A DNA stretch of 36,782 nucleotides from Bdellovibrionales bacterium (GTDB lineage Bacteria; Bdellovibrionota; Bacteriovoracia; Bacteriovoracales; Bacteriovoracaceae), in NCBI GenBank assembly GCA_023250815.1, contig JAHEZZ010000006.1:1-36782 (forward strand). Direction: 5' to 3'. Below are positions 6,518 through 19,423 of this stretch, one piece after another. Both the position numbers and the translations under genes were made by a program. Numbering within the stretch: the first letter of the stretch is position 1; the number at the start of each line of letters is the position of its first letter. The notes under the pieces were generated by a model that did not search any database, was not told the DNA's origin, and worked only from the letters and a program-made list of their open reading frames with translations.

Positions 6518-6574
6518 TATACCCTTCGTAGTACTGAGTTTTTCGTACCGGAAAACTCAAATGTGATGAGTATA
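6518..6574 (+). repeat. Intergenic structured repeat, copy A (half-length)
   Basis: TATACCC...GAGTTTTTCG-TAC-CGGAAAACTC...GAGTATA. 10-bp stem at 6536-6558. Aligns with the 3' half of copy B at 18201-18258. Confidence 0.7.
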
Positions 6575-6576
6575 AC

Positions 6577-6609
6577 ATGTTTTTTTTAATCTTAAGGATA
6601 ATTAAATGA
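6577..6609 (+). other. Putative leader ORF (MFFLILRIIK*) overlapping the M3 peptidase start by 4 nt (ATGA)
   Basis: ATG TTT TTT TTA ATC TTA AGG ATA ATT AAA TGA. Preceded by GATGAG of repeat copy A. Stop overlaps ATG 6606. Confidence 0.35.
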
Positions 6610-8630
6610 GTATACTTTTGGCCGATAAATTTCATACCCCATTTGAAACCATTCCTTTTAATCTAATAAAAAATGACATGTATTTACCTGCAATAAAAGA
6701 GGCCATTTTAAATGCTAAAAAAAATATAGAAAAAATAAAAAGCAATCTTGATCGCCCAACTTTTAAAAATACTTTTGAGGCATTAGATGAATGTTCTTCT
6801 CAGATTGATTTAATTTCCGGTCTTTTTTTTAATTTGCATAATGCAGAAAGTTCACCAGAACTACAAAATATTGCTAAAGATTTTTCTCCCCTTTTGACGG
6901 AGTTTTCCAATGATGTAACTTTGGATGCTTTATTATTTCAAAAAATTAAAACAGCTTTTGATCAAGGAGTTGCCCATTTGGGATCAGAAGAAAAAATGTT
7001 GGCGGAAACAAAATACAAGGGGTTTATACGAAATGGTGCTCTTCTTAATGATACTGACAAAAATAAATTAAGAGAAATTGACAACAAATTAAGTAAATTA
7101 GTTTTAGAATTTGGGGATCATGTTTTAGAAGAGACTAATGAATATGTTATGTGGATCGAGAAGAAAGAAGACTTAGAAGGTTTGCCAGCTTCGGTTATTG
7201 AAGCAGCAAGTACAACGGCAAAAGAAAAAAATAGGCCAGGCGCTTATGCATTTACATTACAACATCCTAGCTATTTGCCTTTTATGACTTATTCCAAAGT
7301 GAGAGAGCTTAGAGAGCAGCTTTTTATTGCCAATGCTACACGTGCTTGCAAGGGCGATAAAAATGACAATAAAAATATTATAAAAGAAATTGTTTTCTTA
7401 AGAAATGCACGTGCAAATTTGCTTGGCCATAAAAATCATGCTCAATTTGTCCTTGAAGAGCGTATGGCCTCTTCTCCTGAAAAGGTTGATAGTTTCCTAA
7501 AAGAAATTTTTAATTATGCTTATTCAGTTGCTCTGAAACAATTTGATGAAATGAAGGCCTACGCAAAAAAAATCGATGGCATTACCAATTTTAAACGATC
7601 TGATACGGCCTACTATTCGGAAATGTTAAAAAAAGAATTGTATAATATCGACAATGAAATCTTGCGGCCTTATTTTAAATTAGAGAAAGTTATATCTGGA
7701 GTTTTTTTAGTCGCTAAAAAACTTTATAATTTGGATTTTAAGGAAAATAAATCTATTTCTGTTTACCATTCTGATGTCAAAGCTTACACCGTCGAAAGAG
7801 AGGGCAAGCACGTTGCCATATTTTATGCAGATTTTTTTCCTCGGGAAGGCAAAAGAGCGGGTGCGTGGATGACTTCTTTTAGGGGACAGAAAAATATCAA
7901 TGGAAAAGAATTCAGACCTCATATCTCAATAGTTTGTAATTTTACAAAACCTACAAAAGAATTGCCCTCGTTGTTAACTCTGGAAGAGGTACTTACTTTG
8001 TTTCATGAGTTCGGCCATGCATTACACGGGATACTCGCTAACACAAAATATGAAAGCCTTTCAGGGACTAATGTTTATTGGGATTTTGTAGAATTGCCTT
8101 CTCAGATTTTAGAAAATTGGGTTTATGAAAAAGAATGTTTAGATTTATTCGCCGAACATTATCAAACAAAAGAAAAAATTTCCCAAGACTTAATTGAGAA
8201 AATTAGAAACAGTTCAAATTTTCAAGAAGGCATTGCTACGATTAGACAAATAACTTTAGCGACACTCGATATGGCATGGCATACTGGGCCCCATGATGAT
8301 GCTAGGGTTGAGGATTTTGAAGATAGTGTGATTAAAAACTTTCAATTTCTTCCACTGATACCAGGAACAAATATTAGCTGTTCGTTTTCCCATATTTTTA
8401 ACGGTGGTTATTCTGCTGGCTATTACAGCTACAAATGGGCGGAAGTTTTAGATGCCGATGCCTTTGAGTATTTCAAAGAAAAAGGTGTTTTTAATAAAGA
8501 GGTTGCTAAATCATTCCAAGACCACATTCTTTCAAAAGGAGGTAGTGAGCATCCAATGGATCTCTATCGTAGATTTCGCGGCAAAGATCCTTCGCCATCT
8601 GCTTTGTTAAAGAGGGCCGGGTTGTTATAA
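6606..8630 (+). CDS. M3 family oligopeptidase (PrlC/OpdA-type zinc metallopeptidase)
   Basis: HEFGHALHG zinc motif (TLFHEFGHALHGILA), SGTNVYWDFVELPSQILENW, full-length M3 layout. Confidence 0.93.
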   Translation: MSILLADKFHTPFETIPFNLIKNDMYLPAIKEAILNAKKNIEKIKSNLDRPTFKNTFEALDECSSQIDLISGLFFNLHNAESSPELQNIAKDFSPLLTEFSNDVTLDALLFQKIKTAFDQGVAHLGSEEKMLAETKYKGFIRNGALLNDTDKNKLREIDNKLSKLVLEFGDHVLEETNEYVMWIEKKEDLEGLPASVIEAASTTAKEKNRPGAYAFTLQHPSYLPFMTYSKVRELREQLFIANATRACKGDKNDNKNIIKEIVFLRNARANLLGHKNHAQFVLEERMASSPEKVDSFLKEIFNYAYSVALKQFDEMKAYAKKIDGITNFKRSDTAYYSEMLKKELYNIDNEILRPYFKLEKVISGVFLVAKKLYNLDFKENKSISVYHSDVKAYTVEREGKHVAIFYADFFPREGKRAGAWMTSFRGQKNINGKEFRPHISIVCNFTKPTKELPSLLTLEEVLTLFHEFGHALHGILANTKYESLSGTNVYWDFVELPSQILENWVYEKECLDLFAEHYQTKEKISQDLIEKIRNSSNFQEGIATIRQITLATLDMAWHTGPHDDARVEDFEDSVIKNFQFLPLIPGTNISCSFSHIFNGGYSAGYYSYKWAEVLDADAFEYFKEKGVFNKEVAKSFQDHILSKGGSEHPMDLYRRFRGKDPSPSALLKRAGLL

Positions 8631-13816: not shown

Positions 13817-13827
13817 TCTTTATGAAT

Positions 13828-13929
13828 GTATACCCTTCGCATTTTACTTCTCAAGCAAATTGTTGCGGGTATACTGCTCTTGATATTGCGCTCTCCTGTC
13901 GAAAGACTCAAGCATGATAAATATAAATG
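13828..13929 (+). repeat. Intergenic structured repeat, copy C (full-length, diverged)
   Basis: Collinear with copy B over ~98 bp. GTATACCC (13828-13835) / GGGTATAC (13867-13874) perfect outer stem. Extends into the start region of the DUF455 gene. Confidence 0.65.
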
Positions 13930-14762
13930 AATTTGCCCTGGAAATTTTGAAAGGTACTTCATTGTCTCAAAAGCTACTGAGGCCTGATCAAGATCTAGAT
14001 TTTTCGGCAAAAGATCTGTTTTTTACAATTAATAAACCAGCGAGATCTGAAAAAATTAAGTTTGGTGGGCAAGCAAAATTTCCACATCAATCGGCGCTTC
14101 GATTAAGCTCAGAAAGAGCGCGGGCGATTCATTTTTTTGCCAATCACGAATTGTTGGCAATTGAAATGATGGCCTATTTTATTTTAACGCTAAAGGAGTC
14201 GACACTAGATAATCAAATTTTAAGGCGTCGTGTTTATGAAACGCTTCGAGATGAGCAGAAACATCTCGAACTATATGTAAGTCGTATTAATTCATTAGGT
14301 GTTGAGTTTGGTGATTTTCCACTCAATGATTTTCTTTGGAGGCAAACAGTTTTTTTTACCGACCCTCAAAAATATTTTGCTATTATGGCCCTTACTTTTG
14401 AATGTGCAAATTTGGATTTTTCAAAATATTATAGCGAATTATTTTTAAATTATGGTGATCAAGAGAGTTCAAAAATATTAGAGATTGTTTATAATGATGA
14501 GATTGCCCATGTTGCTCTTGGGGTAAGCTATCTGGAAAAGGGAAGAAATAATTTAGCTCTTTGGGATTACTATCGTCAGTTGCTTCCTGATCGCCTTGGG
14601 CCGGCCCGGAGCAAAGGCAATCAATTTGACGAATATGCCAGATCCAAAGCTGGTCTTGATAAACAATTTATTGAGACTCAAAAATTGTTTGTTGATCCTT
14701 ACAAAACGATTAATAGAAAAAGCTGGAAAACAAAAGATGATGACATTTATAGTAAATCTTGA
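13914..14762 (+). CDS. DUF455 family ferritin-like (putative diiron) protein
   Basis: Four-helix ferritin-like pattern NHELLAIEMMAYFIL...LRDEQKHLELYVSRI...GDFPLNDFLW...TFECANLDFSKYY...IVYNDEIAHVALGVSYLE; EXXH-type ligands. Confidence 0.85.
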   Translation: MININEFALEILKGTSLSQKLLRPDQDLDFSAKDLFFTINKPARSEKIKFGGQAKFPHQSALRLSSERARAIHFFANHELLAIEMMAYFILTLKESTLDNQILRRRVYETLRDEQKHLELYVSRINSLGVEFGDFPLNDFLWRQTVFFTDPQKYFAIMALTFECANLDFSKYYSELFLNYGDQESSKILEIVYNDEIAHVALGVSYLEKGRNNLALWDYYRQLLPDRLGPARSKGNQFDEYARSKAGLDKQFIETQKLFVDPYKTINRKSWKTKDDDIYSKS

Positions 14763-18098: not shown

Positions 18099-18160
18099 AT
18101 AATCCTAATGTCCAATTTGATAAATTGACCTAATCTTTTGATGGCCACTAAAAGTGAGTG

Positions 18161-18262
18161 CTATACCTCTACCAGTTTACTTTTCAAGTAAACTGTCCGG
18201 GCATACCACTCGTAATATTGAGTTTTCCAAGCTGGAAAACTCAAACGTGAGGAGTATAAATG
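18161..18262 (+). repeat. Intergenic structured repeat, copy B (full-length, two hairpins, ends in SD + ATG)
   Basis: AGTTTACTT-TTC-AAGTAAACT (18174-18194, 9-bp stem) and GAGTTTTCCA-AGC-TGGAAAACTC (18220-18242, 10-bp stem), then GTGAGGAGTATAAATG into the CDS. Confidence 0.75.
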
Positions 18263-19423
18263 ACGAAAATTCTATGTCTTTTAACGAGTGAATTAGATAA
18301 GGTTTTTTTTAGTAAAATTGAACGATGTTTAAACCTTGATGGAATTAATACTGAATCTTACTTTAGTAATACAACTATTGCTGACCAGATTGATGAGTCT
18401 TACAATCATGGCAATGTATTTTTTTTTATTAGTATTGATCACCCTTTGCTTTTAAATATTAGTGGTAACAGTAATATTTTTATACAAAAATTTTTCAAAG
18501 CAAATTGGATTGTTATAATGGATTCCAGTGAATTGATCAAAGCATCAAACTTGTCGATTGATTTTAGAGCAATAAAATATCTTTTGAATAAAGAAATGCC
18601 ACCACAACTTCATCTTCCCGTTTTAAGAAGTCTTATCGCTAGTCAAAAAAATATGGAGACAAAATTTACTCTCAGTGACATGGCAAAAAAATTAAACAAA
18701 TTTTTATCCAATAATTTACATCAAATTGAAAAAATTAAAAAGATACATAAAAGACTAGTTAAATTTAGATCAGAAATAATTAGGCCTTTTGAACTCAATA
18801 GTCGCTATGCTCCAGGTTCCGCTTCAGGGGGGGAGTTTTACGATATTTTTAAGGGGGAACACGAAATTCTTTTAGTCATGACTTCTTCTAATAACTATCA
18901 AACTTCTTCAAGCGTAATATCGATTATTCAAATGATCAAATCGGCCCCCAATCTTTCTTCAAATATTGAACAGGGCCATCGTTCTCTTCTTGACTCCTTT
19001 AAAAAATTAGTGGAGTCCGATGTTGATTTTAACTACTTGTTAATGAGGGGTAGTCTTGCCAGTGCTAAAATTTCTGTTATTTCTAAGGGTAATTTTATCT
19101 TAGTTTCTAATAAGCCTTTGAATGAAAAAAATAAGAAGTCGCTACTTCTTGATTTTTTTCATGTAGATAATTTAACTTCTGTTTTAGACAGAGGTGATCG
19201 TATTGTCTTTCTTTCTCCTGGCATTAAAAGAAATATAAATGAACGATTGATTGGGGGCCTGTCGTTGGATAAATTTATTGAAAGCAAAATAGATATTGAT
19301 TTGAAGGACTTAGTTAATGAGGTCTTTTTTCAGATAAAAAATATTTCGAAAAACCGTTTTTTGGAGTACGATGCTACTTTAATTACATTGGAAATTGAAA
19401 AAAATGCTATTTTAAAAATTTAA
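18260..19423 (+). CDS. Degenerate PP2C/SpoIIE-like regulatory protein with N-terminal receiver-like domain
   Basis: SRYAPGSASGGEFYDIFKGEHEILLVMTSSNNYQTSSSVISIIQMIK resembles the SpoIIE phosphatase signature (VGGDFYD...GDVSGHG) with key Asp residues replaced. Confidence 0.6.
   Translation: MTKILCLLTSELDKVFFSKIERCLNLDGINTESYFSNTTIADQIDESYNHGNVFFFISIDHPLLLNISGNSNIFIQKFFKANWIVIMDSSELIKASNLSIDFRAIKYLLNKEMPPQLHLPVLRSLIASQKNMETKFTLSDMAKKLNKFLSNNLHQIEKIKKIHKRLVKFRSEIIRPFELNSRYAPGSASGGEFYDIFKGEHEILLVMTSSNNYQTSSSVISIIQMIKSAPNLSSNIEQGHRSLLDSFKKLVESDVDFNYLLMRGSLASAKISVISKGNFILVSNKPLNEKNKKSLLLDFFHVDNLTSVLDRGDRIVFLSPGIKRNINERLIGGLSLDKFIESKIDIDLKDLVNEVFFQIKNISKNRFLEYDATLITLEIEKNAILKI

Follow-up and report, generated by a model that had tools for sequence, protein, structure and literature searches.

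The repeat at 18161-18262 of the window, by which we mean the whole stretch of 36,782 nucleotides that was analysed, is very probably not a leader RNA: Its core, copy B, belongs to a mobile DNA element that is scattered over about 84 places in the genome. This element is a bacterial MITE of the RUP, Correia and ERIC kind, a kind that is already known, and the family itself looks new as judged by the descriptions of these three elements. Taken as a whole, the explanation that we regard as highly probable is that of a non-autonomous palindromic MITE, of which the feature represents one copy. This MITE inserts at TA and duplicates the dinucleotide, and it is found as a 97-98-bp two-hairpin form, in single-unit forms of 55-57 bp and, in other genera of the Bacteriovoracia, as related elements with TATA ends. 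Since the element carries no gene, it must be moved by a transposase in trans, and a resident transposase of the IS630 family (DDE_3) with partly similar ends may mobilise it. The 3' end of a copy could act as a translation-initiation region if the copy is suitably oriented and located within a gene start or just before it; copy A, which interrupts the third codon of a DUF455 gene, would supply a new ATG overlapping the stop at which the truncated original frame now ends.

Anatomy and distribution of the element

A BLAST search with positions 18140-18275 against the genome that carries the window (G000; 2.69 Mb in 254 contigs, 86% complete) gave 43 matches on both strands, most of them with the same two boundaries. 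Copy B proper thus comprises 18162-18258, i. e. 97 bp that read TATACC...GAGTATA and are directly followed by AATG. Nearly all copies have the form TATACC...GTATA with 5'-TA-3' at both termini. The two-hairpin form is 97-98 bp long and non-coding, and its perfect terminal repeat is short (TATAC/GTATA); in a related element of G003, the terminal inverted repeat reaches about 29 bp. The original prediction had described a layout of about 98 bp that recurs around 13828-13929 and whose 3' half recurs at 6518-6574, and both repeats were found: Copy A, at 13829-13925, shares 71% with copy B over 99 bp (E 5e-6), and 6518-6574 shares 81% with the 3' half of copy B over 57 bp (E 9e-10). In the consensus of subfamily F1 (TATACCCTTCGCACTTTGCTTTTCAAGCAAACCGCTGCGGGTATACCACTCGTAATACTGAGTTTTCCATACTGGAAAACTCAAACGTGATGAGTATA), a central TATA is common to both palindromes. 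The F2 copies, to which copy B belongs, are 97 bp long and end in GTGAGGAGTATA on the 3' side; GAGGAG is typical of these B-type copies and of the G023 subfamilies, and GATGAG is present in most G000 copies. The units also occur singly: Unit 2 alone forms a 55-bp palindrome at L185, and a solo unit-1 form adjoins the full copy of L008. The features of the window are compiled in Table 1.

Table 1. Element copies and adjoining features in the window
Feature	Position	Strand	Basis
Copy B, 97 bp, of subfamily F2	18162-18258	+	Common BLAST and model boundaries; model score 110.6 bits
TA at the left end of copy B, a presumed target-site duplicate	18162-18163		Analogy with copy A, L146 and L150
TA at the right end of copy B, a presumed target-site duplicate	18257-18258		Analogy with copy A, L146 and L150
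Unit 1 hairpin of copy B, CAGTTTACTT-TTC-AAGTAAACTG	18173-18195	+	Predicted fold; covarying stem
Unit 2 hairpin of copy B, TTGAGTTTTCCA-AGC-TGGAAAACTCAA	18218-18244	+	Predicted fold; pairing kept, sequence varies by subfamily
GAGGAG, Shine-Dalgarno-like, 5 nt upstream of ATG	18249-18254	+	Sequence; unpaired in predicted fold
Gene with ATG 1 bp past copy B; no Pfam match	18260-19423	+	ORF; weak orthologues at syntenic loci
Copy A, a degenerate F1 element of 97 bp within DUF455 codon 3	13829-13925	+	Sequence comparison and frame restoration
Original DUF455 start ATGAATG, cut off by copy A	13822-13828	+	Removal with one TA kept restores MNVNEFALE
DUF455 (PF04305) gene, now from ATG within copy A	13914-14762	+	ORF; Pfam E 7e-44; element 3' end encodes first codons
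57-bp single-unit form (unit 2 and unit-1-like left end)	6518-6574	+	Same form at L036, L177, L178, L184 and L190

The genome-wide search that the original prediction had proposed for further copies returned them in numbers far beyond chance. A covariance model built from 31 copies gave at least 96 matches in G000 at E<=0.01 and at least 85 at E<=1e-3, the latter at no fewer than about 84 places; these counts are lower bounds as 150 of 1540 candidates were scored, and the structure string of the model (R1) was shifted by one column over part of the outer stem of unit 1, with a slight effect on scores. The same model and threshold gave no match in 55 of the 59 genomes searched, so false matches of the model are rare. 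Diverged two-unit subfamilies are present in three other genera (G022, G023 and G042), and in G003 and G023 there are additional palindromes that have TATA ends and carry the terminal sequence TATACCC(T/A)TCGCA. The element ends are wholly absent from G090 and G091, which belong to the genus of G023. No match to the element consensus was obtained among viral contigs, plasmid records and phage records, and a protein of the window has its nearest named relatives in Bdellovibrionales and Bacteriovorax MAGs.

Some further observations concern the copies themselves. Some contigs end within copies (G000:C127:5452-5546 and G000:C197:4012-4070), so that the repeat probably breaks the assembly and the copies are probably undercounted. 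The G003 elements (L228-L237) have long terminal repeats in common, and small internal palindromes such as CCAAACCTTTGGTTTGG have been gained or lost between them. In the F1 consensus copies L011 and L012, one frame is open through the whole 98-bp consensus; as the net insertion is 96 bp or 32 codons with a 2-bp duplication, in-frame insertions are possible.

Insertion sites, candidate mobiliser and known relatives

The gene order around the two full copies of the window (helicase, DUF455, ATP-grasp-like, hypothetical, HD, and the gene behind copy B) is partly conserved in relatives, and the model detected the element at none of 16 loci from these relatives, most of which have the same gene order. 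In several of them, only a few bases separate the helicase stop from the DUF455 start. The copies had been described as lying upstream of unrelated genes: The neighbours are indeed unrelated, but copy A interrupts the DUF455 gene in its third codon. The native start of this gene is the ATG at 13822, and copy A begins at 13829. If copy A is deleted and one TA is kept, the sequence reads ATGAATGTAAATGAATTTGCC and the start MNVNEFALE is restored, in register with MHYREYA... of the orthologues, whereas an early stop results if no TA or TATA (4 bp) is retained. Thus, copy A entered codon 3 at its TA, and 2 bp were duplicated.

The same duplication was read from two further sites in G023. At L146 (G023:C47:11982-12106), a gene for an NfnA/glutamate-synthase-like enzyme contains a related 125-bp element in frame, and the long open reading frame is open through the insertion site solely with a 2-bp duplication. 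In the comparison with NfnA from the PDB (9n5u), residues 145-360 of this protein align with 106-321 and residues 402-586 with 322-506, so that the element adds exactly 41 residues, with none missing, just before the second nucleotide-binding motif; this is a concrete testable case of a related element that extends an enzyme. A batch test of frame restoration, for which many of the matches used were half-elements, was informative for L146 only. At L150, G023 has CTTGG[element]AATCA where G091 has CCTGG-TA-GAC. At the batA-like site L145 insertion is evident, and the duplication is not readable because the flanking bases differ. For copy B, the relatives are distant, and the TA duplication is presumed from the cases of copy A, L146 and L150.

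The best candidate for the mobiliser is a resident transposase of the IS630 family (DDE_3 and HTH_33), to which the ends of the element point. The corresponding insertion sequence of G000 lies on contig C124 (L255 1383-2531), with two further fragments on C142 and C178, and its ends are ATACCAATCGCAAAAATTAATT and ATACCATTTGCATAAATTAATT. The terminal segments ATACCAATCGCA and ATACCATTTGCA each agree with the element sequence ATACCCTTCGCA in 10 of 12 positions. The left end starts from ATACC in three copies or fragments (ATAGC in one). The likeness to the element ends after these 12 bases, and the base that precedes ATACC varies between the IS630 copies; the link is therefore suggestive and not proof. 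G023 and G042 contain elements and gave no DDE_3 match, and no autonomous element with the full terminal inverted repeat was found in any carrier genome. Other candidates were discarded: A pair of ends 1.5 kb apart (G000:C30) encloses ordinary genes, as does a pair 3.3 kb apart (G003:C28), where the genes are syntenic to the window, and the IS630 element of G003 has ends (TATAGATCG) that do not match the MITE of this genome.

Bacterial MITEs are defined as non-coding elements of less than 200 bp with terminal inverted repeats, 5'-TA-3' termini and target duplication (Delihas, PMC2229807), and for the element described here the size, dispersed copies, TA termini, target duplication and terminal inverted repeat all agree with the TA type (PMC2229807). 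The repeat unit of pneumococcus, RUP, is similar in several respects: It has about 107 bp, is intergenic, uses a TA target, is present in about a hundred copies and has been proposed to be mobilised in trans by a transposase of the IS630 family that has similar ends (PMC2229807). However, RUP resides in another host phylum, the present element consists of two palindromic units that also occur singly, and its link to IS630 is, unlike that of RUP, a similarity of 12 bp at the ends. The Correia/NEMIS elements of Neisseria share with it short and long forms, 5'-TA-3' termini, target duplication, the formation of hairpins and a location near genes (PMC2229807); this likeness is one of description only, and the 24-bp terminal inverted repeat and the promoter and IHF motifs are Correia features. 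ERIC/RU-1 of enterobacteria is likewise intergenic and palindromic with TA termini and target duplication (PMC2229807), but differs in size and host. The palindromic elements of Rickettsia lie in frame inside genes (PMC10969869, PMC2229807), comparable to the 41 codons at L146; here, in contrast, most copies are intergenic, and the TA duplication, which is uncertain for the Rickettsia elements, was observed. Among the papers searched, none mentions Bdellovibrio together with MITEs. Our work adds a clearly bounded, high-copy family of TA-type MITEs to the Bdellovibrionota.

Hairpins, covariation and the RNA and REP readings

Both hairpins described in the original prediction are present in copy B, which folds far better than shuffled sequences (z -4.1). 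When the stems were compared copy by copy, both held their pairing while the sequence varied: In unit 1, pair 4 is A-T in 16 copies and G-C in 15, and pair 5 is T-A in 27 copies and C-G in nine; in unit 2, the arm reads GAGTTTTCC, ATTTTCAC, GTTTTAATTTTCC or GAATTTTTCA with matching partners. The compensatory change TTCG..CGGA versus TCCA..TGGA that had been reported between copies A and B does exist, but it distinguishes copy B from the half copy at 6518. In copy A, hairpin 2 has decayed to a best stem of 3 bp, and the fold is no better than that of shuffled sequences (z -0.19). The covariation that had been expected from RNA structure was thus confirmed for both hairpins, but a DNA palindrome also yields covariation, so that covarying stems alone are no sign of selection on RNA. 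Selection on a sense RNA should make G-U wobbles more frequent than A-C mismatches. In the stems, however, G-U wobbles (21) are not more common than A-C (23), and selection on the RNA strand was therefore not seen. We conclude that the hairpins owe their conservation to being palindromes in the element DNA, a conclusion that shares the high probability of the MITE explanation as a whole. For any short genomic repeat, covariation should not be taken as an indication of a regulatory RNA without such a strand test.

These findings bear on the idea that the repeats form a family of cis-regulatory RNAs, such as a switch sequestering the Shine-Dalgarno sequence, in which the hairpins would be selected as RNA and control translation of the downstream gene. 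The strong fold of copy B, the covarying stems and the location of some copies directly before start codons would fit such a family. However, the syntenic leaders of the relatives lack the element, the downstream genes are unrelated without any fixed association, most copies are not beside a start codon, the mismatches show no strand bias, and copy A has lost hairpin 2. Moreover, the pairing of the Shine-Dalgarno sequence with the upstream TACCACTC, on which the proposed switch was based, does not form in the predicted fold of copy B, where GAGGAG is unpaired with a probability of 0.55-0.79. We therefore consider an RNA family extremely unlikely. The Rfam scan of the window detected only a tRNA and no score of the element above a gathering threshold. 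A second possibility, a REP/BIME-type element moved through single-stranded hairpins by a Y1 transposase (RAYT, IS200/IS605-like), would account for the modular hairpin units in solo and paired forms, as they are known from REP/BIME, and single Y1 transposases are encoded in G003, G022, G023 and G042. Yet no Y1 transposase (PF01797) was found in G000 at its completeness of 86%, no element ends lie near the Y1 genes of the other genomes, and insertion by Y1 enzymes is not known to make a target duplication, which stands against the 2-bp TA duplication at copy A, L146 and L150. The REP variant of a mobile element, which the original prediction had also named, is thus very unlikely.

Gene starts next to element copies

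The repeat had been credited with its own Shine-Dalgarno sequence and start codon. GAGGAG lies within copy B, but the ATG at 18260, to which GTGAGGAGTATAAATG leads, belongs to the flanking DNA. The geometry GAGGAG-TATAA-ATG makes copy B the likely ribosome-binding site of the gene at 18260, and copy B thus appears to provide the GAGGAG before this ATG. At copy A, the native DUF455 frame now extends 31 codons into the element, and its TGA overlaps the ATG at 13914 (ATGA). Given the divergence of copy A and the intact DUF455 frame behind it, a start within or downstream of the element seems to be used; in the simplest reading of the sequence, DUF455 would be initiated at the element-derived ATG 13914, perhaps by restart. 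The overlap of stop and start within 13822-13917 is a possible termination-restart arrangement.

At the element ends, we scored an ATG that opens a reading frame of at least 60 amino acids at -1 to +8 of the element end, a crude ORF rule with distance windows picked after seeing the data. In G000, 17 of 74 3' ends lie next to such a start as compared to 5.5% of the intergenic TA(A/T) sites (p 4e-7), and the same holds for 4 of 17 3' ends in other genomes (p 0.012). Of the 5' ends, 3 of 37 in G000 and none of 17 in the other genomes are adjacent to a start, and the pooled comparison of the two ends gives p 0.0055. With an earlier window (0 to +8, G000 only), the values were 15 of 74 versus 3 of 37 (Fisher p 0.17), and the end-specific part of the enrichment is therefore moderate.

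How far the element affects translation can be judged from these numbers. There is close to an even chance that it is a plain MITE without any effect on translation, and that the adjacency to starts reflects the survival of insertions in AT-rich gene-start regions: 57 of the 74 G000 copies have no adjoining downstream start codon, and the Shine-Dalgarno sequence is not significantly enriched in the start-adjacent copies (p 0.12). This explanation is at odds with the specificity of the enrichment for the 3' end and with copy A, which severs the native DUF455 start, is diverged and is followed by an intact frame, so that a start in or after the element is implied. More tentatively, the element may be a portable cassette for translation initiation, the 3' end of which (GTGAGGAGTATA or GTGATGAGTATA) would give adjoining genes a new Shine-Dalgarno sequence or start and would have rewired several of them in different genera of the Bacteriovoracia, including the restart at copy A after loss of the native start. 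As to the suggestion of a mobile MITE that donates initiation sites, its mobility is thus borne out by copy number, TA duplication and absence from orthologous sites, and the donation is supported indirectly by the 3'-end enrichment and by copies A and B, which are testable cases of a mobile element capturing translation initiation. The creation of promoters was considered as well and discarded, as TATAAT at the 3' junction (14 of 74 copies) is about as frequent as the base frequencies of the flanks predict. Finally, the start of the M3 peptidase gene (6597-6614; ATGAGTATA), 31 bp downstream of the half copy at 6518, resembles the 3' end of the element (GATGAGTATA), and this may be a remnant or due to chance.
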